Positions 508-42,546 of a DNA stretch of 47,187 nt are shown piece after piece (position 1 is the stretch's first letter; the number at the start of each line of letters is the position of its first letter). Under the pieces are notes generated by a model, which worked only from the letters and a program-made list of their open reading frames with translations, ran no database searches and was not told where the DNA came from. Origin of the DNA: a virus; IMG/VR virus record IMGVR_UViG_3300032236_001371, positions 1 through 47,187 of that record. One strand, written 5' to 3'. The translations under genes were made by a program, and so were the position numbers.

Positions 508-548
508 AATTAGCTATAAGTGGTTGATAACACTATTTATAGCTAATT
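508..548 (+). terminator. Perfect 12-bp inverted repeat between genes
   Basis: AATTAGCTATAA (508-519) and TTATAGCTAATT (537-548) are perfectly complementary around a 17-base loop, and the loop holds a further AGTG/CACT pairing. It begins 4 bases after the upstream stop codon and ends 7 bases before ATG 556. There is no long T-tract, so it may be a weak terminator, an mRNA-stabilising hairpin, or a structure controlling the start of the glycosyltransferase operon. Confidence 0.5.
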
Positions 549-555
549 GTTTATA

Positions 556-2772
556 ATGAAGGATACATCTAAATTTGAATTATTGCCAAATTTTATTTCT
601 AATAATAATAGAAAAAAATCGGTCCTATATATAGGGGAAAAAGGTACCAGTGGATATGCATCTGCGGCAAAAGGGCATGTTTATTCATTAATAAAAAATA
701 AAATTACCGTTCAATATTTAGAATTTGAAACAAATAATAGTTGTAAAGATCTACCCCCAGAATCATTTTTAATTCCTTCAAAAAAAATAATATTATCAAA
801 TCCAACTGATATTATTATACATTCGATTCCCACAGGATGGGATCAATTATTAAGTGGTTCAAAAGCCAATTATAGTAATAATAATACTACTATAATTGGC
901 CGTACTGTTTGGGAATTCAATAAACTTCCGTCTGAGTGGGTAAATGCTATTAATAATAGTAAAATTAATATTGTTAGCGTTCCAACAGAATTAAATAAAC
1001 AAATATTTATTGATAATGGAGTAACAAAACCAATTGTTGTAGATTCACATATTTTTATAGATTGTGAATATCAATTATGTTCATTAAATAATTTATTTGC
1101 AAAATCAATATTATTTTCAAAAAAAGAATTAAATGGAAAACATTTAGAGCCATTATATAAATTTTATTGTATTTCACAGTTTATTAACCGTAAAGGAATT
1201 GAAGATGCAATTGAAGCATTTTGCAAAGCATTTACTTCAAATGATAAAGTTTTATTTTTATTAAAAGGATTTAGAAAAAATTATTCTATTGAAGAACAAA
1301 TAGAAGTTACTAAATTTCTACAAACTATATCAGATAGATATGATCACGCCCCTATTTTATATATTAAAGAACCTTTAACGTTTGATGAAATTCAAAGTTT
1401 ACATCATCACGGCGATTGTTATTTGAGTTTAACAAAAGCTGAAGGATTTGGATTAGGAATTTTTGACGCATTTAATTATAAAAAGGATATTATTGTCACT
1501 GGATATGGTGGACACACTGAATTTTTGCCGGTGGGATTTGAAGGGTATGTTAATTATAAATTAATTCCAGTACATGATATATCAACTGATGTTCATGTTG
1601 ATAAAGATTGTGTATGGGCACATCCAGATATTGAACATGCGTCTACTTTGTTAAAACAAAATTATAAGTTAAATTACAAAGATGATTTGTATTATTTAAA
1701 TAAATACAAAAAAGTTAGCGATGGAAATGTTAGTAATTTAACTATTAATTATGTTGGCGATTATGGAGAAATGATGATTTCTCCGATCAACAATAATAAT
1801 ACGGGTAAAATTAATTTAATCAATCAAACTTCTTTTTATTCACATCGATCTGGGTGGAATTATGTAATTAATAATTTATTGGATCTACATAATCCAGAAG
1901 GTGTAATTTTTGATGGATTTTTAGAAAATGCATTTTGTTGGAGAAAATCTTATTGTTTAACTGAACAAATTATACCTTATAAACAACCATGGGTTGGATT
2001 TTTACATAATCCTCCAAATATGCCCATGTGGTTTTCTGATAATAATGCAAATCCTCAATTAATGATTAACGATAAGCCTTTTAAAGACAGTTTAAAATAC
2101 TGTAGAGGTTTGTTTGTATTGTCTAATTATTATAAGAGATTTTTACAATATTATTTGCCAAATTTACCAATAGATGTGTTATATCATCCAACTGAAATAC
2201 CACAAAATCAATTTAACTTTAATAAATTTTATAACAATAAAGAAAAGAAAATTGTTAATATTGGATGGTGGCTTCGTAAATTAAATTCTATATTTTTATT
2301 ACACGCACCTAATTACACAAAAATACGATTATTACCAAATAACAAATGTAAAGAAACTGTTTTACGTTTAACAAAATTTGAAAAGTCTTTATTTAATATT
2401 AAATTAAATGATAATCAAGAAAATTCGGTAACTTATGTAGATCATTTGGAGAATACTCAATATGACGAGCTTCTGTCTCAAAATATTGTATTTATCGATT
2501 TATATGATACTAGTGCCAATAACGCGGTTATTGAATGTATTGCTAGAGGTACCCCTTTATTAATAAATAGACATCCTGCTACTATTGAGTATCTAGGAGA
2601 GGATTATCCATTCTATTTTGATTCGTATGATGAAGCAACAATCAAATTAAAAAACATGGATCTCATTAAACAAACACACGAATATTTGATGACGTATGAA
2701 TTACGAAAACAAATAAAAATAGAATATTTTAAAGAACAACTTATTAATTCAAATATTTATAAAGCCCTATAA
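556..2772 (+). CDS. Tandem GT-B glycosyltransferase (two fused glycosyltransferase modules)
   Basis: At 738 residues this is about twice the size of a single GT-B enzyme. The N-terminal half starts with VLYIGEKGTSGYASAAKGH, continues with a TVWEFNKLPSEW segment, and has a nucleotide-sugar site SLTKAEGFGLGIFDAF followed by GYGGHTEFL, typical of GT4-like enzymes (E-x7-E type). The C-terminal half is a second GT-like module with FLHNPP, SNYYKRFL and SANNAVIECIARGTPLLIN. ATG 556 is preferred over an in-frame TTG at 547, which lies inside the upstream inverted repeat. The N-terminal half is paralogous to the protein at 6855-7916. It opens the glycan operon; a bifunctional transferase adding two successive sugars is plausible. 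The acceptor is unknown. Confidence 0.75.
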   Translation: MKDTSKFELLPNFISNNNRKKSVLYIGEKGTSGYASAAKGHVYSLIKNKITVQYLEFETNNSCKDLPPESFLIPSKKIILSNPTDIIIHSIPTGWDQLLSGSKANYSNNNTTIIGRTVWEFNKLPSEWVNAINNSKINIVSVPTELNKQIFIDNGVTKPIVVDSHIFIDCEYQLCSLNNLFAKSILFSKKELNGKHLEPLYKFYCISQFINRKGIEDAIEAFCKAFTSNDKVLFLLKGFRKNYSIEEQIEVTKFLQTISDRYDHAPILYIKEPLTFDEIQSLHHHGDCYLSLTKAEGFGLGIFDAFNYKKDIIVTGYGGHTEFLPVGFEGYVNYKLIPVHDISTDVHVDKDCVWAHPDIEHASTLLKQNYKLNYKDDLYYLNKYKKVSDGNVSNLTINYVGDYGEMMISPINNNNTGKINLINQTSFYSHRSGWNYVINNLLDLHNPEGVIFDGFLENAFCWRKSYCLTEQIIPYKQPWVGFLHNPPNMPMWFSDNNANPQLMINDKPFKDSLKYCRGLFVLSNYYKRFLQYYLPNLPIDVLYHPTEIPQNQFNFNKFYNNKEKKIVNIGWWLRKLNSIFLLHAPNYTKIRLLPNNKCKETVLRLTKFEKSLFNIKLNDNQENSVTYVDHLENTQYDELLSQNIVFIDLYDTSANNAVIECIARGTPLLINRHPATIEYLGEDYPFYFDSYDEATIKLKNMDLIKQTHEYLMTYELRKQIKIEYFKEQLINSNIYKAL

Positions 2773-2776
2773 AAAT

Positions 2777-3391
2777 ATGCAAATTGACTTAATGAATCTA
2801 ACTCTAAAAAATCTTTACCCATATTATCCAAATATTTTAGAATTTGGAGTGGCAACCGGCGAATCATTAAAGTATATTACAGAAAATATATCTACTGATA
2901 AATTTAAAATATACGGATTTGATAGCTTTGAAGGATTGCCTGAAGATTGGATTGGTACTGAATGTAAAAAAGGTTGTTTTTCTACAAATGGTATAATTCC
3001 TAATATCAATGGATGTAAATTTTATAAAGGATGGTTTGAGGATACAATTGATCAATATATAAAAAGCGAATCTACTAAACCAATATCATTACTTCATATT
3101 GATTGTGATTTATATAGTTCTACAAAAACAATTTTAAATAAATTATTACCATATATTGGTACAAATACAATAATATTATTTGATGAATGGTACTATAACT
3201 GTGATTATAGATGTAATGACGGAGAGCAAAAGGCATTTTTTGAATGGATAGTACAAAATAATATTTCATTTGAATTTATGTTTAATGAATTGAATAGTTA
3301 TTATTATAACTCAGATCGAATCAATAACAAATTTGCAATGAATCAAAGAGCTATCCAAATAGTTTATAATAAAAATTTTCAATTAATATGA
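2777..3391 (+). CDS. TylF/MycF-like SAM-dependent sugar O-methyltransferase
   Basis: The 204-residue protein has the class I SAM-methyltransferase motif LEFGVATGESLKYI, then IYGFDSFEGLPEDW, GWFEDTI, LLHIDCDLYSSTKTIL and ILFDEWYY. This is the signature order of the macrocin-O-methyltransferase (TylF/MycF) family, in which the acidic HIDCDLYSS and FDEW residues bind the metal that activates a sugar hydroxyl. It starts 4 bases after the preceding glycosyltransferase and overlaps the next gene by 4 bases (ATGA). The likely role is capping or decorating a sugar of the glycan made by the neighbouring transferases. Confidence 0.82.
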   Translation: MQIDLMNLTLKNLYPYYPNILEFGVATGESLKYITENISTDKFKIYGFDSFEGLPEDWIGTECKKGCFSTNGIIPNINGCKFYKGWFEDTIDQYIKSESTKPISLLHIDCDLYSSTKTILNKLLPYIGTNTIILFDEWYYNCDYRCNDGEQKAFFEWIVQNNISFEFMFNELNSYYYNSDRINNKFAMNQRAIQIVYNKNFQLI

Positions 3392-4107
3392 ATATAGCTG
3401 TATGTATAAGTTCTAGATTGAGAGGTGTATGGAAAATAACATTGCCAAAAATTAAATTATATTTTGATCAATTAAATATAAATGTTGATTATTTTTTACA
3501 TACAAGCAATATTAATGTGGATCGATACACATTATGGGGAGAATCGTATACAAATTTTATATCAAATAATGATATAAATGAAATTAAAAAAATTTTAAAT
3601 CCAAAAAAAATTTATGTAGAAGAAAATTATAAAGATATTAATTTATTATTAAATACAATTCCTACAACTATTAATATTAATACATTTAAACAAGATAATT
3701 ATTATAATATTTATCCAATTTTTTCTATGGAACAATGTAATAATTTAAAAAATGAATATTCGGCATCGCAAAATATTAAATATAATGTTGTTTATAAAAT
3801 TCGGCCAGATATATTTTTTATTGATAATACACCAATAAATATAATATTAGAACATTATAAAAATTTAAATCAATTATTATATGTGGCTGAACAAAAAGAT
3901 AACCGTATTGCAGATTTAATGTTTTATTCTAATAATAATATAATGAATCAATTATTAATTAATGCGTCTTATAGAATGATAAATTCAAATTTAGAATCCC
4001 GAGCAGAAGTTGGATTGTATAATTTATCTCAAATTTCAAATATTTCTATTGAAGATAAATATAAATTTATAAATGTGGATGTAATGCGTAATTGGAAAGA
4101 AAAATAA
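3388..4107 (+). CDS. Glycan-related protein, putative glycosyltransferase
   Basis: The 239-residue protein begins with AVCISSRLRGVWKITLP and has a YKIRPDIFFIDN segment followed by VAEQKDNRIADLMFYS. This order (opening SGxxR-like strand, R-P-D, later D-x-x-x-F-S) is found in a loosely defined group of polysaccharide-biosynthesis proteins thought to be GT-A transferases. No fully convincing DxD motif is visible, so activity is inferred from the family pattern and position between the O-methyltransferase and the GT61-like gene. Its codon use is extremely A/T-rich, like the whole cluster. Confidence 0.5.
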   Translation: MNIAVCISSRLRGVWKITLPKIKLYFDQLNINVDYFLHTSNINVDRYTLWGESYTNFISNNDINEIKKILNPKKIYVEENYKDINLLLNTIPTTININTFKQDNYYNIYPIFSMEQCNNLKNEYSASQNIKYNVVYKIRPDIFFIDNTPINIILEHYKNLNQLLYVAEQKDNRIADLMFYSNNNIMNQLLINASYRMINSNLESRAEVGLYNLSQISNISIEDKYKFINVDVMRNWKEK

Positions 4108-4111
4108 TTAT

Positions 4112-5113
4112 ATGTCAACTTTAACTAACAATTTTTGTTATAATTTTAATAATGTTATTATTGAACATGTAAATTGGCCCACTCTTATTAAATTAAATTA
4201 TAAAAATAAAGATATAAGTCAATTATTGAGTAGAAATTATAAAATTAATAATAAAACAATAAATATTGAAAATTCTATTAATATGTTTAATGATGAATTA
4301 TTATATTCAAATGCAAATATAACAGAACCATGTATGTTATTTTATGAAGAATTTTCTACTAATTATTTTCATTATTTAACAGATTGTTTTCCAAAATTAC
4401 AATATTATTTATTTTTAATAAAAACAATTCCAAATTTAAAATTATTAATTACAGAAGAATATATTAATAATTTATTTATTAAAGATTCATTAAAAATGAC
4501 TTTAAATTCATTAAATAATGTAATTATATTAAAAAAAGATATTAAATATCATTGTAATCAAATAATTATACCAAATGAATTTTATTACTGGCCAGAAAAT
4601 AACATACCTGATATTGTTATAAATTCAATAGAATCACTCGCTACATCAATTAATCAGCAATGTATATACAAAGGAGTATATGTTTCAAGACAAGATACTC
4701 AAAAAAAAGGATGGTGGCATAATAGAAATGTACAAAATGAATTGATTTTAATTGATAAAATAAAAACTGAATTAAAATATGATATTGTTGAATTAATGGA
4801 TTTATCATTAGAAGATAAAATTAAAATTTTTAAATCTTATAAAAATATAATACAGCAAAATGGAGCATCTACCGTAAATTTATTTTTTTGTAATCCAAAA
4901 ACAAATTTTCATATTATTTCACATCCATTTATTTCAAAATGGGCAAATCCATTATTAAAAAATATATCTGATAGAAAAAATGTAAATTTTTATGAATATA
5001 ATTATGGAATGTTGATTGGCGATCAATGCAGCGGAGATATAAATAATCAATCGTGGAGTATAAATAATATTGATGATTTAATTACTAATTTAATAAAAAA
5101 TGAACAAAATTAA
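4112..5113 (+). CDS. GT61 (DUF563) family glycosyltransferase
   Basis: At 333 residues it shows the DUF563/GT61 pattern: NYFHYLTDCFPKLQYYL in the N-terminal third, GVYVSRQDTQKKGWWHNRNV (the S-R...R-x-x-N-E signature) in the middle, then IVELMDLSLEDKIKIF and IIQQNGASTVNLFFCNP. GT61 enzymes transfer xylose, arabinose, GlcNAc or other sugars from nucleotide donors; the donor cannot be read from sequence. It overlaps the following gene by 14 bases, as expected for translational coupling in a single operon. Confidence 0.8.
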   Translation: MSTLTNNFCYNFNNVIIEHVNWPTLIKLNYKNKDISQLLSRNYKINNKTINIENSINMFNDELLYSNANITEPCMLFYEEFSTNYFHYLTDCFPKLQYYLFLIKTIPNLKLLITEEYINNLFIKDSLKMTLNSLNNVIILKKDIKYHCNQIIIPNEFYYWPENNIPDIVINSIESLATSINQQCIYKGVYVSRQDTQKKGWWHNRNVQNELILIDKIKTELKYDIVELMDLSLEDKIKIFKSYKNIIQQNGASTVNLFFCNPKTNFHIISHPFISKWANPLLKNISDRKNVNFYEYNYGMLIGDQCSGDINNQSWSINNIDDLITNLIKNEQN

Positions 5114-5981
5114 TTTATATTATTGGAATAATGGAGTAGGAGTCGTTAATGATACTTTATTAATATCGTCTTTATTTGATAATGTAAATCAATATGAGCT
5201 GTCTAATAAATTAAATGAATATGATATCGCAGATATTGGTATTTATATTCAAAATATTGATGATACAACATTACAATATAATAAAAAAAATATATTTATA
5301 GCAAATGAAGAATGGATAACATCATATGAATTAGGATTGTTAAGTAACTTTGAATGTATTATTGTTAAATCAAAACACGCAAAACAATTATTAGATCCTT
5401 ATCATAAAAATGTAATTTATGCTGGGTTTTTTAGTTTAAGTAGATTTGAAAATCCAATACACACAGGTAATATTTTACATTTTAAAGGCAAATCAATTCA
5501 AAAAAATCATGAATTAGCATTTAAATATAAATATAAATATAATATTAATATTATTGATTCTGAAACAAATTATTTAACCGAAGCAGATGTTATCAAAAAT
5601 TTAAATAGTCATGACATTCATATTTGTTGTAGTTTATATGAAGCATGGGGACATTATTTATGGGAAGCAATGAGTTGTGGTAAACTTGTTATATGCAGTG
5701 AAATTCCTGTATTTAAAGAACATCTTGATCCAAATTTAGTAAAATTTATTCCAATAATAAAAACTATAAATTATGATCCTGAATATAGATTTTTAAACAA
5801 TAATAATTATCAATTTCGGACCGGATATTTTGTTGATGAAATTGTATTCGAAGAATTATTAGATGAATCTCCAAAGTTATTGGAATATCAAAAAGAAAAA
5901 TCAAATGATATTATAAATTTTACTAAAAATGTAATAAATACGCATAAAATTAAATTTATTAAAATTATAAAAAATATATAA
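5100..5981 (+). CDS. GT-B glycosyltransferase (GT4-like C-terminal domain)
   Basis: The 293-residue protein ends in a typical GT-B sugar-nucleotide site, SLYEAWGHYLWEAMSCGK, followed by EIPVFKEHL; the two Glu residues around the glycine-rich stretch are the usual donor-binding pair. An IFIANEEW segment near residue 65 resembles the acceptor-side strand of GT4-like enzymes. It is short for a full GT4 enzyme (usually 350-400 residues), so the N-terminal Rossmann domain is minimal. ATG 5100 overlaps the GT61-like gene. Donor and acceptor are unknown. Confidence 0.72.
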   Translation: MNKINLYYWNNGVGVVNDTLLISSLFDNVNQYELSNKLNEYDIADIGIYIQNIDDTTLQYNKKNIFIANEEWITSYELGLLSNFECIIVKSKHAKQLLDPYHKNVIYAGFFSLSRFENPIHTGNILHFKGKSIQKNHELAFKYKYKYNINIIDSETNYLTEADVIKNLNSHDIHICCSLYEAWGHYLWEAMSCGKLVICSEIPVFKEHLDPNLVKFIPIIKTINYDPEYRFLNNNNYQFRTGYFVDEIVFEELLDESPKLLEYQKEKSNDIINFTKNVINTHKIKFIKIIKNI

Positions 5982-5982
5982 T

Positions 5983-6858
5983 ATGAATATTGAAAGTAAA
6001 AACAGTGTAATATGTTATTTATCTAAATCAAATGATAAAACTATTTTAAATTTGTATAATTCGTTAGAAAAATTATATTTAAATTATAAATATATATATA
6101 ATAGTGATGTAATTATATTTATTGAACATGATTTCCCTATGAGTGTTATTAATACATTAAAAAATAAATATGTCAATATAAATTTTCAATTTATTAATTT
6201 AGCAGCGTCACAATATTTTAATATTAATAATTTAAAATTTGAAGATGGACATCCAGAATACACAATCGGTTATAGACATATGTGTCAATTGTTCTTCAGT
6301 GAAATTTTTCAATATTTACAAAAATATGACTGGTATATGAGACTTGACACAGATTCTTTTATAGAAAGTCCGATTGATTATAATTTATTTCATTATTTAG
6401 AAATAAATAATAAATTATATGGTTATACAGCAGAATTGGCTGAATGGCCGCCGGTTGTTATTGGAATGGGAGAATTTTTTATTAATTTAGCTCAAAATCA
6501 AAATCTTAAAACAAAATTTTTTAACAAATTAATAGAAAATGAGAGATATAATCTTAGACAAATTTATAATAATTTTGAAATCATTAAATTGTCGTATATA
6601 AGAAGTGAACCGGTTCAATTATTAATTAAAAAAATAAATGAAAGTGGAAATATATATATAAAACGATGGGGCGACTCTCCATTGAGAACATTTATATTAT
6701 CTTTAACGGTAGATAATACTCAAATACATAAATTTAATAATTTTGATTATACGCATGACGCATATAGTCGAATAAATGGTATTGAAATTTGTAAATATAG
6801 TGGATATCAACAATATTTATTTAAAAAATGGAAAACAGAAGGATGGTTAGATCAATGA
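5983..6858 (+). CDS. GT15-like (KRE2/MNT1-type) mannosyltransferase
   Basis: The 291-residue protein contains YTIGYRHMCQLFFSEIF, KYDWYMRLDTDSF, NNKLYGYTAEL and RWGDSPLRTFILSL in that order. This matches the core of GT15 alpha-1,2-mannosyltransferases, where a YxxMCR-type helix, a Y-W-R-L-D/E-x-D strand, K-x-Y-G-(F/Y) and RWGD-x-P form the GDP-mannose and Mn site. GT15 is best known from fungi. The usual signal anchor is absent, so the enzyme would be cytoplasmic. A GDP-mannose donor would fit the GDP-mannose dehydratase gene at 21111. The gene starts 2 bases after the previous stop and overlaps the next by ATGA. Confidence 0.72.
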   Translation: MNIESKNSVICYLSKSNDKTILNLYNSLEKLYLNYKYIYNSDVIIFIEHDFPMSVINTLKNKYVNINFQFINLAASQYFNINNLKFEDGHPEYTIGYRHMCQLFFSEIFQYLQKYDWYMRLDTDSFIESPIDYNLFHYLEINNKLYGYTAELAEWPPVVIGMGEFFINLAQNQNLKTKFFNKLIENERYNLRQIYNNFEIIKLSYIRSEPVQLLIKKINESGNIYIKRWGDSPLRTFILSLTVDNTQIHKFNNFDYTHDAYSRINGIEICKYSGYQQYLFKKWKTEGWLDQ

Positions 6859-7916
6859 AAAATATACTTTATATCGCAGTTTACGGAACATGTGGATATG
6901 CAATATCTGCAAAATATTTTATGTTTAATTATTTAATGAATGGTTATAATGTTACATTTATTCCACAATATGTAGATAATACAAAAATTATTAATCCTGA
7001 TATTATTGAAAAGTCGATTGAAGAATGTAAAGAAAAATTTTATGATCATTATGATTTATGCGTGATTAATTTTCTTCCAGATCAAGTTGATAATTTAATA
7101 ATTGGTTATAAAAAATATTTTAATAATCCGGATATAAAAATAGTTCTTCAAACTACATGGGAAACTACTAAATTACCGCCTGAATGGATGCCTTTTCTTA
7201 ACAGCAAAAATTTACATGAGATATGGACCTCATCTGAATTCACAAAAAAAATATTTCAAGATAATGGCGTAACTATTCCAATCAAAGTAAATAAATATTT
7301 AAGTTATAATTTTTTTAATAAACGAGAAAAAGTAGATTTAAATATTCCTAATTATTTACAATATGGTAATAAAAATATTAAAAATACATATAATTTTTAT
7401 AATATTGCCACTTGGAATGATCGAAAAAACAATGTTAATACAATTAAAACATATTGTGATACATTTACAGGAGATGATAATGTGTCACTGATAATGAAAA
7501 CAAATTATTATTATTATACAGAAGAAAGTGTTAATATTATTAAAAAAGAAATTGAAAATATAAGATCAAAATATCCAAATCCTCCAGATATAGTTATTTT
7601 TTTTGGAAATTATTCAACAAAAGAAATTAATGAAATACATAATTTAGGAGATTGTTATTATTTATTGCATAGAGGTGAAGGGCTTGGATATGCCGCATAC
7701 GAAGCTTATTTAAATCACAAACCCGTAATAGTTACAAAATATGGTGGACATATAGATTATTTTACTGAAAATTATCCATATTTGGTTGATTACACAATGT
7801 GTGATGTGTTTGGTATGGAATTTGCATTGTTTTATCAACATAAACATCAATGGGCAGAACCAAACTATGAACATGCAAAACAATTATTATTAACTGTTTA
7901 TAATAAATATAGATGA
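6855..7916 (+). CDS. GT-B glycosyltransferase, paralogue of the first module at 556
   Basis: Starting from ATG 6855, which overlaps the previous stop as ATGA, the protein is 353 residues; an earlier in-frame ATG at 6828 would overlap the upstream gene by 31 bases and is less likely. It begins ILYIAVYGTCGYAISAKYF, has QTTWETTKLPPEWMPFL, and ends with HRGEGLGYAAYEAYLNHKP followed by TKYGGHIDYF. These align position for position with the N-terminal module of the 556 protein, so one arose by duplication of the other. The E-G-x-G-Y...E motif is the GT4-type nucleotide-sugar site. Confidence 0.75.
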   Translation: MKNILYIAVYGTCGYAISAKYFMFNYLMNGYNVTFIPQYVDNTKIINPDIIEKSIEECKEKFYDHYDLCVINFLPDQVDNLIIGYKKYFNNPDIKIVLQTTWETTKLPPEWMPFLNSKNLHEIWTSSEFTKKIFQDNGVTIPIKVNKYLSYNFFNKREKVDLNIPNYLQYGNKNIKNTYNFYNIATWNDRKNNVNTIKTYCDTFTGDDNVSLIMKTNYYYYTEESVNIIKKEIENIRSKYPNPPDIVIFFGNYSTKEINEIHNLGDCYYLLHRGEGLGYAAYEAYLNHKPVIVTKYGGHIDYFTENYPYLVDYTMCDVFGMEFALFYQHKHQWAEPNYEHAKQLLLTVYNKYR

Positions 7917-8701
7917 TATATTATACCACATTATTAAATGATGAAATTGATTTCTTAAAAATGCAATTAGAAATTAATTATCAATACGTTGATAAATTTG
8001 TGATTGTTGAGTCTACATTAACTTTTTCAAATAGACCAAAACCTCTATATTACCTTGAAAATAAAAAACTATTTGAACAATATCAAAATAAAATAATTTA
8101 TTTAATTGTTAATTTTGACGAATTAGATACGTGGATAGAATATCCATCATCTGTATTTAATGTAGAAGACTGGCGGCGAGATTATAAGCAAAGATATTAT
8201 GTATTTGAACAAATTAAATTTAATGATGATGATATTATAATTTGTGTTGATATTGACGAAATTGTTTTTTTAGATAGATGCATAAATCGAATTGATAAAA
8301 ATGATGTTAATTATTTTGAACTTGATATGCGTAAATATTATTTAAATTTACAATGTACTATAAATAATCCTTGGATCAGAGCACTGGCATTTAATCCAAA
8401 TTTATATAAAGAAGAAATTAAAAAATTATGGCATTTAAGATTTTTAAAAAATAAACAAGGTTCGTATAAAATAATTTCTAATGCAGGTTATCATTTTTCA
8501 TGGTGTTATAATGTTGAAAATAAATTATTATCATTTGCGCACCAAGAAGATAATACCCCTGAAAGATATCAAATGGTGAGAGATAGAATAAAAAAATTAG
8601 AGGATACTAAATTAATGAATGATTTACCTAGTTTTTTATATACTAATTATTCTAAATATATATACAAAAATGGATGGATAGAAAATAATACATTAATATA
8701 A
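7913..8701 (+). CDS. GT17 family N-acetylglucosaminyltransferase-like protein
   Basis: The 262-residue protein has LNDEIDFLKMQLEINYQYVD, FVIVESTLTFSNRPKPL, an R-rich middle (WRRDYKQRYYVFEQI), and DDDIIICVDIDEIVFL, then GYHFSWC. These are the conserved blocks of GT17 (beta-1,4-N-acetylglucosaminyltransferase III-like) enzymes, including the V-E-S-x-x-T-F strand and a D-x-D-E-I metal site. Bacterial and viral members are soluble and of unknown acceptor. It starts in an ATGA overlap with the upstream gene. Confidence 0.87.
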   Translation: MIYYTTLLNDEIDFLKMQLEINYQYVDKFVIVESTLTFSNRPKPLYYLENKKLFEQYQNKIIYLIVNFDELDTWIEYPSSVFNVEDWRRDYKQRYYVFEQIKFNDDDIIICVDIDEIVFLDRCINRIDKNDVNYFELDMRKYYLNLQCTINNPWIRALAFNPNLYKEEIKKLWHLRFLKNKQGSYKIISNAGYHFSWCYNVENKLLSFAHQEDNTPERYQMVRDRIKKLEDTKLMNDLPSFLYTNYSKYIYKNGWIENNTLI

Positions 8702-8705
8702 AAAT

Positions 8706-9398
8706 ATGATAAAATTATTGCATAGAATTTGGATAGGTAATCCTCCAATGAAAAGAGATTATTCAGAATATATTAAAACGTTTGAATCTGTATTTGATGA
8801 TTTTACCACGATTCATTGGAACGATATCAATACAAGAGAGTTTGTTAAAACATATTATCCCAAATGGGAGTCTTATATTTTTAATGAAGATAACAATCCT
8901 GCATTTAGAGCTAATATTGCCAGATTTTTAATTTTAAAGCATTTTGGAGGGTTATATTCAGACTGGGATATAAAAATTTTAGATCCTGAAATTAAAAAAT
9001 TAATGATTAATTCAGATTTTTCGGTGACGACGGAAATAATTACAGATGAATCGTTTGCCGCCAAAACTGCAAAAATACCAATTCGTCAAAATATTCCCGA
9101 AGATATTCGTAGAATTGCAGATTATTTTATTTATTGTGAGCCAAATCATGTAATATGGGATGATATTTTTAAATGTGTTGAAGAAAGATTAAATCGAACA
9201 AGTGTTATTGTTGAAGATTATGATGTACTTTATACAGTTGGACCTGATGTAATAACTACAATTGTAAATTTATATGAAAATAAATATAAATTAAATGTAT
9301 TAAGTTTAACTGATAGTAAAAAAATAATACATGAGTGTCATGGAAGTTCAACTTGGAAACAAATGTTAAAACAAAATTCGGTTGGATGGTATGAATAA
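8706..9398 (+). CDS. GT32-like glycosyltransferase (DXD sugar-binding family)
   Basis: The 230-residue protein opens with KLLHRIWIGNPPMKRDY and carries ANIARFLILKHFGGLYSDWD. HRIW near the N-terminus, R-x-x-I/L-x-x-x-GG-x-Y-x-D-x-D in the middle and a late H-x-x-x-S/G-S-W (here HGSSTW) are the hallmarks of the Och1/GT32-type 'Gly_transf_sug' family. DWD is the metal- and nucleotide-sugar-binding DxD. The gene is eighth in the operon. Confidence 0.85.
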   Translation: MIKLLHRIWIGNPPMKRDYSEYIKTFESVFDDFTTIHWNDINTREFVKTYYPKWESYIFNEDNNPAFRANIARFLILKHFGGLYSDWDIKILDPEIKKLMINSDFSVTTEIITDESFAAKTAKIPIRQNIPEDIRRIADYFIYCEPNHVIWDDIFKCVEERLNRTSVIVEDYDVLYTVGPDVITTIVNLYENKYKLNVLSLTDSKKIIHECHGSSTWKQMLKQNSVGWYE

Positions 9399-10071
9399 AA
9401 ATATTATTAATAGTAAACTTGAAAAAGTATTTTGTATTACATGTTGTAACAGTTTAGATAGACAACAAAGATGTATTGAACAGTTTAATCATATAAATTT
9501 AGAATATGAATTCGTTCCATCTATTAATAAAGAGTATTTGAATGTCGATAAATTATCAATAACAAAACCCGAATTCAGTTTATTGACATCACATCTTTCA
9601 TGTTTTTACAAAGCTAAATTACATAAATTAACAAATTTTGCAATAATAGAAGATGACATAGAGTTCGATAGTGATAAAATTACAACAGAATTTGAACCTT
9701 TTTATGATCAATTGCCAATTAATTGGGAAATTTTATATCTTGGACATGCTAAATGGCTTGATGGCATTTTTGATACCAAAAAAATTATTATAAATTCACA
9801 TGTATCATTATGCAAATATGGATGTGGGACAAATTTCATGGCGTTTAAAAATACAATATATGATACATGTATAGAAAAATTAAGTAAATTAATCTACCCA
9901 GTTGATTTGTGTTATCAAGAAATTATGACAGATTCAGACATATGTTATACTTGCACAGTTGGTAGTTTTGCAGATGCGCTTTCAGCACCTGACAAACAGT
10001 ACGAGAATCGTATTTTAAATTTTAATAGATCTAATTATATTAATTCTTTAATAGGTCCATTTAGATCATAA
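9391..10071 (+). CDS. GT25-like LPS-type glycosyltransferase
   Basis: With ATG 9391 (overlapping the previous stop by 8 bases) the protein is 226 residues; an in-frame ATG at 9382 is also possible. VFCITCCNSLDRQQRCIEQF at the start, LTSHLSCFYKA, FAIIEDDIEF and YLGHAKW follow the order of GT25 enzymes of the LOS/LPS glycosyltransferase family, with EDD as the metal-binding motif. It is the last rightward glycan gene; directly after its stop the opposite strand carries a truncated fucosyltransferase. Confidence 0.75.
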   Translation: MNKNIINSKLEKVFCITCCNSLDRQQRCIEQFNHINLEYEFVPSINKEYLNVDKLSITKPEFSLLTSHLSCFYKAKLHKLTNFAIIEDDIEFDSDKITTEFEPFYDQLPINWEILYLGHAKWLDGIFDTKKIIINSHVSLCKYGCGTNFMAFKNTIYDTCIEKLSKLIYPVDLCYQEIMTDSDICYTCTVGSFADALSAPDKQYENRILNFNRSNYINSLIGPFRS

Positions 10072-10218
10072 TTTATAGACGGAGTAAATAACAATATCAG
10101 GTTCTACATCGTCAATTATATAATTAATGTTATATTTTGTTAATATATCTGTAAAAATATTACTTTTATAATCCCATAATTCATTCCAAAAGTCTTTAAA
10201 ACATATTTTGATCTGCAT
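10066..10218 (-). pseudogene. N-terminal remnant of a GT10 (alpha-1,3-fucosyltransferase-like) gene
   Basis: A leftward frame of 50 codons reads MQIKICFKDFWNELWDYKSN, then a middle that includes FTDILTKYNI, and ends PDIVIYSVYKL before a stop. This closely follows the first ~50 residues of GT10 fucosyltransferases (K-I-x-F-x-D-F-W, N-x-F...L, then P-D-x-x-x-Y-S-V-F/Y). Full enzymes have about 300 residues, and nothing downstream continues the family. It therefore looks like the stub of a gene lost by recombination at the edge of the glycan cluster. It could alternatively be a small expressed domain. It lies tail-to-tail with the GT25-like gene, overlapping its last 6 bases. Confidence 0.6.
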
Positions 10219-10246
10219 ATTAATAAATATCTATATATTTATGTAT

Positions 10247-10726
10247 ATGCCAAAATTACAAGAAAATGAAATGGGTGATAGAATGATGACTGGAATGTCT
10301 TATTCACAAGGTGGTGGATTAGGTATGAGTGGTGTTGATACCATTAGTAGTCCAGATATCAGTCAAAATCCTGACAAATTTAAATATCCTCAAACTGCTG
10401 CTAGTCCAAGTGATATTACAGTGCCGACTCCAGATGATATGGATCATAAGATTCAAAGCCGTCAAGATTATGAAAAAGATGTTGATTCTATCAAATACAA
10501 AGTTACTCCCGATGAAATCATCACTGGCATGAAATATGAATTAAAAAGAATGGTCTTTAAACGTAAAGATACTGCAAAACAAATAGTTGTTCAAAATTTA
10601 AAAAAGAATCCTAAATTTTATAGTAGTTTGGCAAGCATGATTGTTAATGAACAAGGTGTTCGGGTTCAAGCTGTCGATGACATTATGAAAGAAATGCAAA
10701 AAAAGAAACATATTCGTGAACTATGA
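10247..10726 (+). CDS. DUF5661-like virion-associated protein
   Basis: ATG 10247 gives a 159-residue protein; ATG 10241, two codons earlier, and further upstream codons are possible but have no better initiation context. The first ~60 residues are Gly/Met/Ser-rich and low complexity. The C-terminal part, DEIITGMKYELKRM...TAKQIVVQNLKKNPKFYSSL, follows the GM..E.E...T..IA..HL..NP.YY..L pattern that I associate with DUF5661, a short helical domain common in phage structural regions. The same pattern occurs in the next protein. The two genes overlap by ATGA. The function is unknown; position suggests late expression. Confidence 0.55.
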   Translation: MPKLQENEMGDRMMTGMSYSQGGGLGMSGVDTISSPDISQNPDKFKYPQTAASPSDITVPTPDDMDHKIQSRQDYEKDVDSIKYKVTPDEIITGMKYELKRMVFKRKDTAKQIVVQNLKKNPKFYSSLASMIVNEQGVRVQAVDDIMKEMQKKKHIREL

Positions 10727-12093
10727 AAATTGAACCTACCCATCCAGCAAAAATGAACGACCCTTTATTAAAAAATAAAGCTATGTTGAGCAAAAACGGC
10801 AATCGCAAACGCTGGACTATTAATTATGATTATCGCCAACACGGTAGTTTTGATCAATTAAATAAACATCAAATTGATGAATTTACTGGTGAACCAGAAA
10901 CATGGTCTGATACAAAACATAATAATTGGGATATTGGATATAATGAATTTTATGAAGATTTACAACCTGCTAATAAATTAACTGGCGGCGTTGGTGATGC
11001 TACTGCACCACATGATGTTGATCCCGTAGAATTATCATTAGGACAAACTATAGAAATGGAGCATACTACAGATCCTGATATTGCTACTGAAATCGCATTA
11101 GATCATTTAAAAGAAAATCCGAAATATTATACTCAATTAAAAAATGCAGGTCTTGCAAAAGAATTAGAATTGGTTAGTACATCTTCTGGATTTGGTGATC
11201 CAAATCATCCTATTAATGATAAAAAACGACTTGGTTCTGATATTACATGCACTCCCGGAAATAATATTGTTGGTAAAATAGGAAATACTCCTGATGGTCA
11301 CGTTGAAGGGTATAATGATTCACCTTCTATTATTGATAAACCTGTTGATATAGATATTGAAGAACCAGTTGATGAAGATCGATGCTATTACAAAGCAGTA
11401 CAGGTATATGGTCCAAAAACATCTGCATACCGTTCTGGTGCTATGGTTAAATGCAGACAGGGAAAAATTTGGAAGAAGACTCAGGAAGAAATTGAACAAA
11501 TAAAAAAGGAATTAGAAGAAGATTTTTCAGAAGAAAAGAAACAACAAGGGTTGCACGGATGGTTTGCTCGTCGTGGCGGCAAGGGAGGTCAAGGTTGGGT
11601 AGATTGCAATACATGTCGCACCAATCCAAAAACAGGAAGAAAAACTTGTAACTCATGTGGTCGCCAAGCTGGTGAAAAACGTAGTAAATATCCAGCATGC
11701 CGTCCTACACCCAGTCAATGCAATCGAACTGGAACAAGTCGCAAAAAAGGACCAACTAGAGTTTCTTGGAAACCAAAAAATGAATCTATGAAAATTAATG
11801 AATCGTCTCAAACAAGTGGTATTATTACAGGTCAAAATCCTCAAGGAAAAACAAGTACCAGAAGTAGCGGTACTTCACAATCTACAGCTCCTCAAATAAC
11901 AACTGGATATGGTACATCCAAAGCACCTATTCATGGAACCGGAGAAGAAAGTGAACGTAAGGGAGCATATGATTTTTTTCAATATAAAAAAGATAATGCT
12001 AAATTTGGAAATGGTAATATCATTAAAAAATCTGGACGTGTAGATTTGTATGAATTAGCAAAACAAGCTTTAAAAGATATTCAAAATGATTAA
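10723..12093 (+). CDS. Multidomain virion-associated protein with DUF5661-like and Cys-rich domains
   Basis: The 456-residue protein has a DUF5661-like segment near residues 105-145 (LGQTIEMEHTTD...HLKENPKYYTQL). A central domain contains CYYKAVQVYGPKTSAYRSG, and a Cys-rich block near 285-340 has GWVDCNTCR, CNSCGR, YPACRPTPSQCN; the block resembles small domains of unknown function seen in marine and freshwater T4-like phage proteins. The last ~100 residues are Ser/Thr/Gly-rich and disordered before a short C-terminal helix. The Cys pairs could bind zinc. It is the middle gene of a three-gene rightward block facing the fibre genes. No enzymatic motif is visible. Confidence 0.6.
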   Translation: MKIEPTHPAKMNDPLLKNKAMLSKNGNRKRWTINYDYRQHGSFDQLNKHQIDEFTGEPETWSDTKHNNWDIGYNEFYEDLQPANKLTGGVGDATAPHDVDPVELSLGQTIEMEHTTDPDIATEIALDHLKENPKYYTQLKNAGLAKELELVSTSSGFGDPNHPINDKKRLGSDITCTPGNNIVGKIGNTPDGHVEGYNDSPSIIDKPVDIDIEEPVDEDRCYYKAVQVYGPKTSAYRSGAMVKCRQGKIWKKTQEEIEQIKKELEEDFSEEKKQQGLHGWFARRGGKGGQGWVDCNTCRTNPKTGRKTCNSCGRQAGEKRSKYPACRPTPSQCNRTGTSRKKGPTRVSWKPKNESMKINESSQTSGIITGQNPQGKTSTRSSGTSQSTAPQITTGYGTSKAPIHGTGEESERKGAYDFFQYKKDNAKFGNGNIIKKSGRVDLYELAKQALKDIQND

Positions 12094-12102
12094 TTTTAGA
12101 AT

Positions 12103-12447
12103 ATGAGTGAGTATGATTCATGGACTAGTGTAAGTCCGCAGCATTTGTTGTTAAAGCAAATGCAACAACAAAGTTTTCATATTGCTGCTCCAAACGAATT
12201 TGATCCTTATCAAACATTGTTGAAACGTAAAAAACAACAAGATAGTGGTCAAATGCCCCCAATTAAAAATATCAATCCAGATGATTTATATGAATTGCAA
12301 GAATTTTGTAAAATACATGGCATCATGGGATTTAATATGGGTACAATGAATCCTAAAGCGGCATTAGCAATGCTCAAAAAAAAGATGGGAATAAAGGTTG
12401 AAACTCCAATATCCCCATCTATTCAAAACAAATTGTTATTAGGTTAA
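12103..12447 (+). CDS. Hypothetical protein next to structural genes
   Basis: The 114-residue protein is Gln/Lys/Met-rich, with a helical N-terminus (LLLKQMQQQSF) and a C-terminal helix-turn region DLYELQEFCKIHGIMGFNMG followed by LAMLKKKMG. No family is recognised. The gene ends in a 4-base overlap of stop codons with the convergent fibre-like gene. Its position after two DUF5661-like proteins suggests the same late transcript. Confidence 0.55.
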   Translation: MSEYDSWTSVSPQHLLLKQMQQQSFHIAAPNEFDPYQTLLKRKKQQDSGQMPPIKNINPDDLYELQEFCKIHGIMGFNMGTMNPKAALAMLKKKMGIKVETPISPSIQNKLLLG

Positions 12448-13313
12448 GTCCAACGTGCCTTTGGAATTCTAGTCCATACATTATTAGTATAGATATATAC
12501 ATAATTATTGTCAAATCTCATTTCTCCCGGCAATCCACTATCAGTACTATTTGTAGGAGCACTGCCACTGTTTGTTAATGAGAAATAAACTATACTTGCA
12601 GTATTTGCAGTTATTACATTTAATGAACTGGTTTGTACCACTGTCAAATTACTTGCAGTTACTACACTACCACTGAAGTAACTACTACTGATTGAATTTG
12701 TAGATCCGCTTAATAATGCATCACTAACAAATTGACCTATATATTGATATGCAGTAGCATATATTCTATTTGACGGAACGACTGACCCGGAAAATTCCAA
12801 TACACCAGTTTTATAATCAAATGCATAATTACTAGATGTCCAATTGGTAAATGTAACTCCATCAGGAGATGTAAATAATGCAATGTTATATCCCGGTGGA
12901 TTACCATTATTTCCAAAATCTGCTGTTTGATTGGCAATAGTTGTTACACCGTATTTTGGACTAATAAAGTTAGTTTGTTGACTAGCAACAATTAATTGAC
13001 TTCCGGTTCCGGCGGCACTGCCACTTGGACTCATAAAAAACCATACACTATTTGCAAGTTGAGTGTCATTTGCAACAGTCATGGGAAATTTATACCAATA
13101 TTTAATTACACCACTAGTTTGAGTTGTTCCCGGTGTTGCGCTTGAACTATATGGTAAACTTGAACTTGGAATTAAATTAGTTTGAGACCAAATTTCGTTA
13201 GCTCCCATCTGAATTGTAGATGTAAAAGCTTCTTGGGAATCAGACAAATCCGTCGTTGTGTAACGGCGTCCTACCAATAATCTCGCTGCTTTTGTTAGAA
13301 GATCAAATGCCAT
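12444..13313 (-). CDS. Tail-fibre or baseplate-like structural protein
   Basis: The 289-residue protein begins with a helical MAFDLLTKAARLLVGRRYTT, then becomes Ser/Thr/Asn/Tyr-rich beta-type sequence (FTSPDGVTFTNWTSSNYAFD, SGSTNSISSSYFSGSVVTAS) and ends with LPGEMRFDNNYVYIYTNNVW, the kind of C-terminal segment found in phage fibre and decorating proteins. It has no enzymatic motif. It follows the larger fibre-like gene by 3 bases and shares its transcription unit. A receptor-binding or neck/baseplate role is inferred from composition only. Confidence 0.6.
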   Translation of the reverse strand: MAFDLLTKAARLLVGRRYTTTDLSDSQEAFTSTIQMGANEIWSQTNLIPSSSLPYSSSATPGTTQTSGVIKYWYKFPMTVANDTQLANSVWFFMSPSGSAAGTGSQLIVASQQTNFISPKYGVTTIANQTADFGNNGNPPGYNIALFTSPDGVTFTNWTSSNYAFDYKTGVLEFSGSVVPSNRIYATAYQYIGQFVSDALLSGSTNSISSSYFSGSVVTASNLTVVQTSSLNVITANTASIVYFSLTNSGSAPTNSTDSGLPGEMRFDNNYVYIYTNNVWTRIPKARWT

Positions 13314-13316
13314 ATA

Positions 13317-15992
13317 TTATGAAAGTTTTTCTATTTTAATACTTGTAATTGGAGTTGGATTTCCATTATAACGAATTATTAAATATATTTCGTCTTGTGC
13401 TGGATTTGTATTATCTAAGATAGCTCCGTCAGCGGCTCTCGTTGGAAATATTAATGGACTTCCATTACTTGCTCCTGTTCCATTATTACCATATAAATCT
13501 ATTAATGAACCAAATGGATTTACTCCACTTGTGCTAAAATCAGAAGATGCTACACTTGATGATATTACGTTATTTACTATATTATTGACATCATACAAAC
13601 GACATCTGCTATAAACATTACTATCGGCACTTTCAAATATAATTGCCATTGCAATACTATTTGCCGCTGTTGAATCCCAATTTACTAGTGAAGTATTCCC
13701 AGTTAATGTGATTTGCAATTTATTTACAACTAGATTTGATTTGAAATGTCGTACATAATATTTATAAGTGGTTCCGTATCCACTGGGATACCAATATCCA
13801 TATGTTCCACCCGGATTTGCCAAGAAGCCGGGTTTTACTTGTAATTCATGAGTTCCTAAAGATGACGCACTATTGAATGCAGAACCACTCATATTTAACA
13901 TATTATCTGCTAAAATAATGCGGTTGGCTTCATCTAATAATTGTTCTGTAATTGCACCCGGATTTAATGATTGGGAACCGAAAGTTAATGAAGAAGTTAC
14001 ATAACCTTCTGGTCTTCCAAAATATAACAAACTACCACTTGCAGATGGTATTCCAAATGAACCTGCGGTATGAACATTATATGTTTGAGAACCTACAACA
14101 GTTCCACTTCCTGCTCTATTATTGGTTGTTGTATTTATTGTGAATGTTGATAATGAAGAACCCGAACTAGCTGCGTTTGTACCGCTTCCAGTGGCAGTTA
14201 AAGTCAAATCAAATACAATTACATCACTTTCAAACGGATATGCACCTACTGCTCTGGTTGTAACATAATCAGAAGATTTTACCACACCAGCAGTTTGAAT
14301 AGTTGGATTGGTTGTTAATGATGAACTATTTGTGGTAGATAATCCAAGTGTTGCATTTGTATAGGTTACACTTGACACCGTTCCATTAAGATACAATGGA
14401 TTAAATGCGCCACTTGAAGTTACTACATAACGATAACTTGAACCACTAGATAAATATGGTGCCCCACTTAAACTTCTAGTAACTGCACTAACATAACTAC
14501 CTGAACTATTCGGAGAAGTAATAGTTTGAGTAAATGAAGCATCTGCTAATGGAGTGTAATAATATGTTACAGTTGACGGTGTATATGTTGTATATGTTGA
14601 ACTACCAGAACTAATACCCACACTTGCACTAAAAATATAAATACCACTACTACTTAAATTTGATAATGCTACACTATTTGTTAAATTAGAACCTGTAAAA
14701 CTACTAAAATATCCATCTTGATAAACTGGAGGAATAACCGCACTATTTGCAGACGGCACCGTATTTAATGCAATTGGTGTTGCAATAGAAGGTGTTAAAT
14801 TAGTTACAGATTGACTGACAATAGTAGATGCTAATGTATTTGTATAATTTATTGTGCCAGCACTACTTGATGCAAATGTTAATCTAAATGATCCACTCAG
14901 ATTTACTTGTGTTAAATTACCATTATTTAATAATCCTAATCCAAATGCACTTGAACCTAAACTTGAACTTACAGTTGTACTTCCACCAGCAGTACTAGCA
15001 TAGCTTATATATGCAGCACCAGTATTAAAAGTAAATCCACTGAAAATAGTTGATCCGATAGTTGCCCATCCGAGTGGTTGTAAATATAAAATATTATTAT
15101 TTGTACTACCGGATGGTACGCGTCCATTAATTGTTACTGTAGAACCAAAATTTGTATTTGTGCCGGTAACGCCACTAAAAGTTTTTGTATTTGGAGTTGG
15201 TATAGGATAACTGGCACTAAATGCTCCTGCAAAAAATCTTAATATATCACTTACATTTGTATCGCTATTCCAAGTTGAAAAATAAGAACCGGTTAACGGC
15301 GTTGTTCCCCATGGATAACTACTGTTTGGAATACCTACATTAATATTTGATGAAGATAATCTTCCATTTAATTGAAAACTACTTGAACCATTTTGAGAAG
15401 TAATACTACTTTGTGTAACTAATGTTAACACTTGGGTACCAGATACACTTGCACTAATAATATTATCATTTGCAGTTACGCTTGTTTGTGAATTTGGACT
15501 GACTATTGCAGTACTATTTAAATTCGTAACATATGATGCAGTTAATGCATAACTAGAACTAAGAGCATTACTTGCACTAAGAGCATAACTAGCACTTGTT
15601 ACGGTACCAACAATTTTACTTGCTGTTATATATGATGCAGTCAAACTATTATTTGCCCAACTACTAGTTACTTGAATTGTGCTGCCGCTAATAAATGATG
15701 GAGGTGCATAACTTGCACTTAATACATAACTTGCACTAATAGCAACACTGGAACTTTGTGCCCAACTACTTGTTATATCATATGTTGATCCTGTTACAAG
15801 ATTAATTCCTCCAATCACATATGACGCCGTTGTTGCATAGCTTGCACTATTTACTGTTCTACTTCCGGTGACTACACCATTTGAATCTGTAGATAATATT
15901 AGATTTGAACCAGATACGAATGCTTCTATGTAAGAAGTGTTATCTGATTTTCTTTGATCAAATCTTATAGAAAATGGTCCAATTGTTGACAT
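13317..15992 (-). CDS. Large repeat-containing tail-fibre-like protein
   Basis: At 891 residues this is the longest uninterrupted structural gene here. After an opening of about 45 residues come many copies of an S-A-S-Y-A/V motif (see the repeat entry), then ~700 residues of Ser/Thr/Gly/Asn-rich beta sequence (for example VYSRCRLYDVNNI near the C-terminus) with few charged residues. Such composition is usual for trimeric fibres or large surface-exposed virion proteins. A possible late promoter lies 37 bases upstream of its ATG. No chaperone or endosialidase domain is recognised, so the exact virion location is open. Confidence 0.65.
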   Translation of the reverse strand: MSTIGPFSIRFDQRKSDNTSYIEAFVSGSNLILSTDSNGVVTGSRTVNSASYATTASYVIGGINLVTGSTYDITSSWAQSSSVAISASYVLSASYAPPSFISGSTIQVTSSWANNSLTASYITASKIVGTVTSASYALSASNALSSSYALTASYVTNLNSTAIVSPNSQTSVTANDNIISASVSGTQVLTLVTQSSITSQNGSSSFQLNGRLSSSNINVGIPNSSYPWGTTPLTGSYFSTWNSDTNVSDILRFFAGAFSASYPIPTPNTKTFSGVTGTNTNFGSTVTINGRVPSGSTNNNILYLQPLGWATIGSTIFSGFTFNTGAAYISYASTAGGSTTVSSSLGSSAFGLGLLNNGNLTQVNLSGSFRLTFASSSAGTINYTNTLASTIVSQSVTNLTPSIATPIALNTVPSANSAVIPPVYQDGYFSSFTGSNLTNSVALSNLSSSGIYIFSASVGISSGSSTYTTYTPSTVTYYYTPLADASFTQTITSPNSSGSYVSAVTRSLSGAPYLSSGSSYRYVVTSSGAFNPLYLNGTVSSVTYTNATLGLSTTNSSSLTTNPTIQTAGVVKSSDYVTTRAVGAYPFESDVIVFDLTLTATGSGTNAASSGSSLSTFTINTTTNNRAGSGTVVGSQTYNVHTAGSFGIPSASGSLLYFGRPEGYVTSSLTFGSQSLNPGAITEQLLDEANRIILADNMLNMSGSAFNSASSLGTHELQVKPGFLANPGGTYGYWYPSGYGTTYKYYVRHFKSNLVVNKLQITLTGNTSLVNWDSTAANSIAMAIIFESADSNVYSRCRLYDVNNIVNNVISSSVASSDFSTSGVNPFGSLIDLYGNNGTGASNGSPLIFPTRAADGAILDNTNPAQDEIYLIIRYNGNPTPITSIKIEKLS
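15528..15848 (-). repeat. Tandem SASYA-type repeats inside the fibre-like protein
   Basis: Residues 49-155 of the fibre-like protein repeat a short unit: SASYATTASYV, SSWAQSSSVAISASYVLSAS, SSWANNSLTASYITAS and SASYALSASNALSSSYALTA. The unit is about 5-8 residues (S-A/S-x-Y/W-A-x) and is visible in the DNA as recurring 'cttgcact' and 'atagctag'-like strings. Such units probably form a regular beta or triple-beta shaft and are prone to copy-number change by slippage. Confidence 0.75.
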
Positions 15993-16162: not shown

Positions 16163-16462
16163 ATGAAATTATATATCAAAGACACTACAATAAGTAAAGA
16201 ACCTAAGTTTTTTAATACTATAAACGAAGTTGTTAACCATTTAGAAGGTGCGGTTCAACGTAAATTTAGACAAACTCGTAAACAATATATGCAAAATTTA
16301 GTTGATTTGGGTCATGGATATGATGATCCCGAAGGCAAAAATTTCACAGAAGCATTGAGTCGAGTATTTGAAATCGGATTGCAGAAGCCACATGGTTTAG
16401 TTCGTTGCAATATTCATGAAGCATCACTTCATTCTAAATATAGAACGGAAAGTGGTGACTAA
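16163..16462 (+). CDS. Hypothetical protein upstream of the helicase
   Basis: The 99-residue protein is basic and mainly helical (AVQRKFRQTRKQYMQNLVDL), with no recognised domain, membrane segment or Cys pair. It ends 7 bases before the helicase ATG and is probably co-transcribed with it from the candidate promoter at 16093. A small DNA- or helicase-associated protein is possible but this is only inferred from position. Confidence 0.6.
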   Translation: MKLYIKDTTISKEPKFFNTINEVVNHLEGAVQRKFRQTRKQYMQNLVDLGHGYDDPEGKNFTEALSRVFEIGLQKPHGLVRCNIHEASLHSKYRTESGD

Positions 16463-16469
16463 AATATTT

Positions 16470-40689: not shown

Positions 40690-40700
40690 GTTATTTTTAT

Positions 40701-41207: not shown

Positions 41208-41230
41208 AGTGTTATTTTTTAAAGATATAA

Positions 41231-41741: not shown

Positions 41742-41760
41742 AAGTTCCCTTATTATAACC

Positions 41761-41961: not shown

Positions 41962-41968
41962 AATTAAT

Positions 41969-42280: not shown

Positions 42281-42294
42281 AAAAAAAGCGGTTT

Positions 42295-42534: not shown

Positions 42535-42546
42535 GAGTTAACTTTT

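Follow-up and report, generated by a model that had tools for sequence, protein, structure and literature searches.

A putative exchangeable glycan-assembly cassette in a fixed slot of uncultured T4-like phages

Introduction

Variable glycosyltransferase islands are already known in T4-like phages. The hypervariable host recognition cluster of pelagimyophages and cyanomyophages is a large, variable island rich in glycosyltransferases in T4-like genomes and also contains radical S-adenosylmethionine (SAM) cassettes. It lies between VrlC and gp14 together with tail fibres, and diverges gradually (PMC7029224). The present study concerns a ten-gene block at the start of IMGVR_UViG_3300032236_001371, a single linear virus contig of 47,187 bases, hereafter the window (the whole stretch of DNA that was analysed). 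Here, too, a variable glycosyltransferase-rich region is embedded in a conserved T4-like backbone. In contrast to the described cluster, its slot is not located between VrlC and gp14 but follows the clamp loader in sibling phages, is anchored by a glycosyltransferase with a conserved N-terminus, and is replaced wholesale between near-identical phages. From comparison with these siblings, the block is read as one allele of an exchangeable glycan-assembly cassette.

Several other virus-encoded systems resemble this locus. The capsular and lipopolysaccharide (LPS) clusters of cyanophages are polymorphic and combine several glycosyltransferase (GT) families with methyltransferases and sugar nucleotide enzymes, while the available part of the jumbo phage review describing them makes no mention of a conserved priming glycosyltransferase or a fixed clamp-loader slot (PMC7824862). 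Glycans on the virion itself have precedents in the mycobacteriophages Che8 and Rita (reported in PMC11256854), the jumbo phage XacN1 (PMC5852040), and the chloroviruses (PMC9614988). In Che8 and Rita, phage-encoded glycosyltransferases act on a virion protein; these phages use two or a few such enzymes in place of a ten-gene set, and they are not T4-like (PMC11256854). Capsid glycosylation in chlorovirus PBCV-1 (A064R, A061L, B736L) relies on mostly soluble cytoplasmic glycosyltransferases, including a multidomain transferase, and on sugar O-methyltransferases. However, PBCV-1 is a eukaryotic virus, its acceptor is the major capsid protein, and its genes are not described as one exchangeable cassette (PMC9614988).

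Bacterial O-antigen and capsule loci are characterised by conserved flanks, variable transferase cargo, aberrantly low GC content, and serotype-like allele replacement. The cassette shares all four features, but no initiating transferase acting on a lipid carrier was found, and no flippase or polymerase is apparent. The new elements are the clamp-loader slot, the priming enzyme with a conserved N-terminal and a variable C-terminal half, and the wholesale replacement between near-identical phages. No description of these was found in a partial coverage of the literature, and priority is unproven.

A fixed slot after the clamp loader

A megablast search with the first 12 kb of the window against phage records gave no match at the DNA level. 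Relatives were reached by protein searches of viral contigs, first for contigs with the same flanks and then for the clade sharing the first gene of the block, G1. All of them are metagenomic fragments, and gene order was read only as far as each contig extends. The contigs G001 (96 kb), G002, G003, and L080 to L093 share the order DNA polymerase, sliding clamp, clamp loader, usually a small gene, G1, the cassette, flankR1, and flankR2. Because the window starts inside this shared order, its clamp loader falls beyond the end of the contig. The siblings have T4-like replication genes. Within this uncultured T4-like clade, the block occupies a fixed slot behind the clamp loader. The genes that border the slot in the window are as follows.

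10 to 504, + strand: left neighbour, a small nucleoside 2-deoxyribosyltransferase-like gene (PF05014, E 4.5e-4, below the cut-off)
547 to 2772 (ATG at 556), + strand: G1, 741 amino acids, two glycosyltransferase-like halves (Glycos_transf_1, 33.9 bits)
10208 to 10726, + strand: flankR1, conserved right border gene (67-68% identical to G001 and G002)
10723 to 12093, + strand: flankR2, conserved right flank gene with a DUF5661 segment (65-72% identical to siblings)

The left neighbour is 45% identical to the gene at the same position in G001, G002, and L080. A gene of this type adjoins the cassette in several siblings, and other small genes replace it in others.

The nearest cultured relative found is Microcystis phage Mel-JY01 (PP395634), with a polymerase identity of 45.7%. 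In this phage, too, glycosyltransferase genes (83.4-89.7 kb) follow the clamp loader at a distance of a few kb. It differs in that several genes intervene, and that its G1-like match is only 23% identical and placed elsewhere. The photosynthesis genes psbA and psbD, sought in 15 records as a sign of a cyanobacterial host, were absent, which is uninformative for fragments.

Exchange of the cassette between sibling phages

The exchangeability of the cassette, which is the main point, was not visible in the preliminary description made from the window itself. It becomes apparent when closely related siblings are compared. G017 (L090) and G019 (L092) are 94.7% identical over 13.9 kb, ending about 1 kb into G1; 8.5 kb without alignable DNA follow, after which the contigs are 90% identical again. 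Identity between the two reaches 99-100% for polymerase, clamp, and loader and 92% for flankR1, whereas the C-terminus of G1 is essentially unrelated (one 72-residue match) and only one of nine cassette genes matches. G001 and G002 behave similarly: polymerase and clamp are 95% and 98% identical, yet at the cut-offs used no homologue of any of the seven cassette genes of G001 turned up in the cassette of G002. On the left, sibling G1 proteins begin at 97-100% identity and have fallen to background level near residue 360, where the N-terminal GT4 domain ends. On the right, homology between siblings restarts about 45 nt before flankR1.

Alleles are also shared between contigs. L091 and L093 carry one common allele, and L083 matches G002 at 100% across five cassette genes before it departs, and so looks like a recent recombinant. 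About a dozen cassette alleles were counted, although this number, like those of shared genes, depends on the mechanical caller of open reading frames (ORFs) and the BLAST cut-offs. Assembly chimaeras could mimic one border, but independent contigs repeat the pattern and show both borders. Other plastic regions exist in these phages, notably a second region upstream of the slot. As a separate observation downstream of the slot, G018 (reversed, around 64700-75300) shows many overlapping 65-70% matches to G020, which indicates a long repetitive gene or repeat array.

The middle of the cassette would be swapped by homologous recombination between two conserved stretches, the N-terminal domain of G1 and flankR1, so that near-identical phages would carry different glycans.

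The conserved first enzyme

G1 is found at the left end of the cassette with a constant and a variable half. All 12 aligned relatives have its N-terminal GT4 domain (about residues 1-400), at 40-47% identity to that of the window, and the alignment of 12 such domains contains 53 invariant columns. The AlphaFold model of this domain adopts a GT-B fold with a mean predicted local distance difference test score (pLDDT) of 76.5. Its best match in the PDB is a glycosyltransferase of a Chlorella virus (chlorovirus), 3oy2, with a template modelling (TM) score of about 0.58 and 14% identity; this match informs on the modelled fold only and says nothing on the substrate.

The C-terminal part (about residues 400-741) is glycosyltransferase-like and specific to the allele. 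The window, G003, L084, and L090 have one glycosyltransferase-like module here (55-77% pairwise identity), G001 has a second GT4 copy, and G002 and L080 contain another unrelated module. In L128 (WLOB01000088.1), the module of the window type is encoded as a separate gene. Because of these differences and the separate gene in L128, domain shuffling at the G1 boundary is well supported.

L128 is the sole G1 hit in the genome collection, where it is filed as a contig of an Actinomycetota metagenome-assembled genome (MAG). It was considered as a bacterial donor of G1 and rejected: the contig is another phage cassette allele, with a G1 79% identical to that of L084. Its filing either reflects a contaminated bin or hints at a host.

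Genes of the window cassette

The preliminary description had announced a tightly packed run of ten genes, and this holds. Positions 547-10071 (ATG at 556) are filled by ten intact consecutive ORFs on the + strand, arranged head to tail, with neighbours at most 4 bases apart and overlapping by as many as 31. The two largest overlaps become smaller if translation starts at the in-frame ATGs at 6855 and 9391. G1 is followed by nine genes.

2777 to 3391, + strand: G2, TylF-type SAM-dependent sugar O-methyltransferase (TylF/Methyltransf_24; motif HIDCDLYSS)
3388 to 4107, + strand: G3, 239 amino acids, no family, possible GT-A-like enzyme (Rossmann-like N-terminal half, RPD motif)
4112 to 5113, + strand: G4, glycosyltransferase family 61 (55.1 bits, E 1.2e-14)
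5100 to 5981, + strand: G5, GT4 glycosyltransferase (36.2 bits; E-x7-E motif EAWGHYLWE)
5983 to 6858, + strand: G6, GT15, homologue of Kre2/Mnt1-like alpha-1,2-mannosyltransferases (PF01793, 76.8 bits with a cut-off of 25, E 2.7e-21)
6828 to 7916 (probable start 6855), + strand: G7, GT4 glycosyltransferase paralogous to the N-terminal domain of G1 (31.1 bits)
7913 to 8701, + strand: G8, glycosyltransferase family 17 (71.7 bits, E 7.5e-20; DxD motif VDIDE)
8706 to 9398, + strand: G9, GT32-type glycosyltransferase (Gly_transf_sug; PF04488, 34.6 bits, E 3.1e-8; DxD motif SDWDI)
9382 to 10071, + strand: G10, glycosyltransferase family 25, last cassette gene (36.8 bits, E 4.8e-9; EDD motif)

Above the Pfam gathering cut-offs, eight of the ten genes are glycosyltransferases (three GT4 members and one each of GT61, GT15, GT17, GT32-type, and GT25) and one is a TylF-type methyltransferase. 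The seven transferase families announced beforehand are thereby recovered as six GT families and one methyltransferase family, and the predicted sugar O-methyltransferase is confirmed by Pfam as G2. Eight of the nine glycosyltransferases originally claimed are firm, while the ninth, G3, has no match in Pfam or PHROG. Two weak homologues of G3 (26-28%) occur in other phage glycan clusters, and the G003 cassette contains a homologue. Its structure model is Rossmann-like but of low confidence (mean pLDDT 54.7), and no fold claim is built on it.

G6 is assigned to GT15 by a significant full-domain profile match and a conserved catalytic segment. It matches yeast Kre2 (1s4n) with an E of 4.3e-20, and the DxD-equivalent, NNFEI, and RWGD segments are kept in the alignment. 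GDP-mannose (guanosine diphosphate mannose) is the donor expected for such an enzyme. A search with the G6 protein against viral contigs and phages gave nothing close, and GT15 is rare in these phages, as a two-sequence profile recovered only G003 and one 33% relative. G5 is 56% identical to a G003 gene and 42% to an inverted G001 gene, and G7, with the E-x7-E motif EGLGYAAYE, is 59% identical to an L080 cassette gene. A DxD motif is also visible in G6, as is an E-x7-D motif in the conserved half of G1. The highest 19-residue hydropathy in the cassette is 1.13, with no transmembrane-like segment in any block protein, and the enzymes are soluble, with intact motifs.

The block differs from its surroundings in composition, with a GC content of 0.20-0.28 compared with 0.29-0.36 in the remaining 2-kb bins of the window, and a GC content at third codon positions of 0.13 compared with 0.21 in the remaining genes. 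This aberrant composition, together with the great differences between sibling gene sets, would suit a passive pile-up of sugar genes that were gained by horizontal transfer and make no joint product. Such an origin is highly improbable given that the ten genes are intact, on one strand, and nearly overlapping, that nine have family matches, that the N-terminal domain of G1 is fixed in place across the clade, and that donor pathways are encoded as well. Judged by its proteins, such a run of assigned, intact transferases with active-site motifs is not explicable by chance.

The sibling alleles carry other cargo. Among 45 sibling cassette proteins, the families GT25, GT32-type, Caps_synth, GT4, GT2, GT34, Anp1, NodZ, GT6, and GT10 were found, along with several methyltransferases, a sulfotransferase, WcbI, LicD, a cytidylyltransferase, and a GH130-like protein. 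G001, G002, and G003 add radical SAM, FkbM and other methyltransferases, GT8, GT6, GT25, GT61, and a nucleotidyltransferase-kinase fusion.

The window also carries a gene that probably serves donor supply.

21111 to 22250, + strand: GDP-mannose 4,6-dehydratase homologue (TIGR01472, 336 bits with a strict cut-off of 415)

It has strong homologues in seven other records. A second large glycan island of G001 (32000-55000), rich in enzymes of nucleotide-sugar synthesis, encodes at 32-53 kb RmlD, a GDP-mannose dehydratase, an aminotransferase, a UDP-glucose (uridine diphosphate glucose) dehydrogenase, and an NTP transferase (nucleotidyltransferase). G003 has a second large glycan island at 33000-50600 with differing content; the family scan covered G001 only. 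The G001 contig also encodes, at 80855-84196 (L072), a GDP-mannose dehydratase homologue of 1113 amino acids with two intein-like inserts at conserved motifs (NAGC..NSSEEYG and NHEC..HNSPRRG), which is unusual for a sugar-nucleotide enzyme and hints that this enzyme matters to the phage.

Taken with the intact catalytic motifs and the TylF-type methyltransferase, the dehydratase homologue in the window and the donor-sugar pathways in the sibling make the proposed assembly of a methylated oligosaccharide by the block well supported.

Proposed mechanism and acceptor

The GT4 domain of G1 would place the first sugar on an acceptor that the whole clade shares, and this priming role would account for the retention of the N-terminal domain. 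G4 to G10 would then extend the chain in the cytoplasm using nucleoside diphosphate sugars made by phage and host, with the GDP-mannose dehydratase homologue probably supplying a GDP-6-deoxyhexose, and G2 would methylate the chain. A conserved first enzyme and variable extenders suggest that the acceptor or the first sugar stays constant while the outer chain varies.

An initiating phosphoglycosyltransferase (PF02397) was found in none of 15 records, while the control search was positive in nine of 14 genomes. No flippase- or polymerase-like membrane protein is apparent in the window cassette; one protein of L091/L093 has a hydrophobic segment (Kyte–Doolittle hydropathy, KD, 2.01), and the host could supply such functions. 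With neither a lipid-carrier initiating enzyme nor an apparent membrane protein in the window cassette, direct stepwise transfer to a cytoplasmic acceptor is the simplest reading. The cassette also has the soluble cytoplasmic glycosyltransferases expected of systems that glycosylate virion proteins. Newly made virion proteins are accordingly regarded as the best candidates, and the acceptor is most likely one or more abundant surface proteins of the virion, which would then bear a glycan coat encoded by the phage and variable in the manner of a serotype. That the cassette allele builds a glycan, with a virion protein as the likeliest acceptor, is held with moderate confidence. The wider picture is more tentative: a T4-like lineage would diversify its virion glycan coat in the manner of bacterial serotypes, the N-terminal domain of G1 would double as a recombination anchor, and near-identical phages would wear unrelated oligosaccharides.

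Several points weigh against this reading. The placement of the glycan on the virion is inferred and the acceptor putative, and the recombination step is deduced from the homology borders. The cassette adjoins replication genes, and the canonical T4 late promoter TATAAATA, sought on the + strand upstream of G1 in the window, was not found, although this search cannot decide timing because the genome is so AT-rich. Fibre genes adjoin the cassette in only some siblings. Similar islands are read in the literature as modifying the host O-antigen (PMC7029224, PMC7824862), and soluble GT25, GT32, and Caps_synth-type enzymes also suit work on the LPS core or capsule with host lipid carriers and flippases. 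The absences listed above carry little weight because the records are metagenomic fragments.

The preliminary description had named the Ser/Thr-rich fibres at 12444-15992 as an example of a target. This link is not supported, since G001 has the cassette and no fibre gene beside it. A canonical late promoter of the same sequence does occur at 16037 on the - strand, some 45 nt ahead of the fibre gene, which starts at 15992.

Two of the targets first offered, virion protein and host envelope, still stand as candidates. Under the latter, the same exchangeable cassette would remodel host LPS or capsule during infection and block the adsorption of competing phages (superinfection exclusion), and its exchange would reflect competition among phages. 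Such remodelling has been proposed for the pelagimyophage islands (PMC7029224) and for the cyanophage capsular clusters (PMC7824862). GT25 and GT8 are families typical of LPS, the sibling cassettes contain Caps_synth, WcbI, and LicD homologues, and the nearest cultured relative infects the cyanobacterium Microcystis. On the other hand, the window cassette has no apparent membrane-embedded transferase, and the missing flippase, polymerase, and PF02397 enzyme would have to be provided by the host, which could fill these gaps. Furthermore, the window shows neither an integrase nor any other sign of lysogeny, which would limit the time for remodelling. On balance, host remodelling is the main rival and is considered less likely than a virion acceptor.

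The third target, DNA bases, is disfavoured. Glycosylation of phage DNA would protect the genome against restriction; it is practised by T4-like phages, the cassette lies next to replication genes, and G8 has a weak match to T4 beta-glucosyltransferase (PF09198, 15.1 bits with a cut-off of 27, E 0.019). However, no cassette gene passes the cut-off for the T4 alpha- or beta-glucosyltransferase, and a set of nine to ten enzymes for elongation and methylation is far more than known DNA glycans would require. No gene resembling a deoxycytidine monophosphate (dCMP) hydroxymethylase was recognised in 15 records, one of them of 171 kb, in a screen that covered the hydroxymethylase route only, which argues against a DNA acceptor within that route. 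The thymidylate synthase family PF00303 is absent in 12 of the 15 fragments and present in G014, G015, and G016; the G014 protein, the one read of the three copies, has the Asn of PFN and the Cys of PACH and is a true thymidylate synthase. DNA glycosylation is thus considered highly improbable, and a virion protein is retained as the preferred acceptor.

Other features of the window

Three further observations concern genes outside the cassette. The SNF2-type helicase gene at 16416-19106 contains a Hint and LAGLIDADG intein at about residues 144-483, which the sibling phage G001 lacks. A phage-encoded NifU/IscU-like Fe-S scaffold protein is found at 22428-22829. At 39348-47087 lies a nicotinamide adenine dinucleotide (NAD) salvage set consisting of phosphoribosyl pyrophosphate (PRPP) synthetase, NAMPT, a cytidylyltransferase-like protein (possible NMNAT), and a NUDIX protein.

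Conclusion

Glycosyltransferase islands of environmental myophages are usually labelled "LPS modification" without a test. The cassette offers two ways to approach their role: the conserved first enzyme G1 is one gene to knock out or purify for acceptor identification, and near-identical phages that differ in their cassettes form natural isogenic pairs for comparing what the glycan does. Should a virion protein prove to be the acceptor, these phages would have self-encoded, serotype-like coat variation, which would be relevant to adsorption, host range, decay, and recognition. The exchange pattern suggests that these phages trade their sugar coats in a way that resembles serotype switching at bacterial surfaces.

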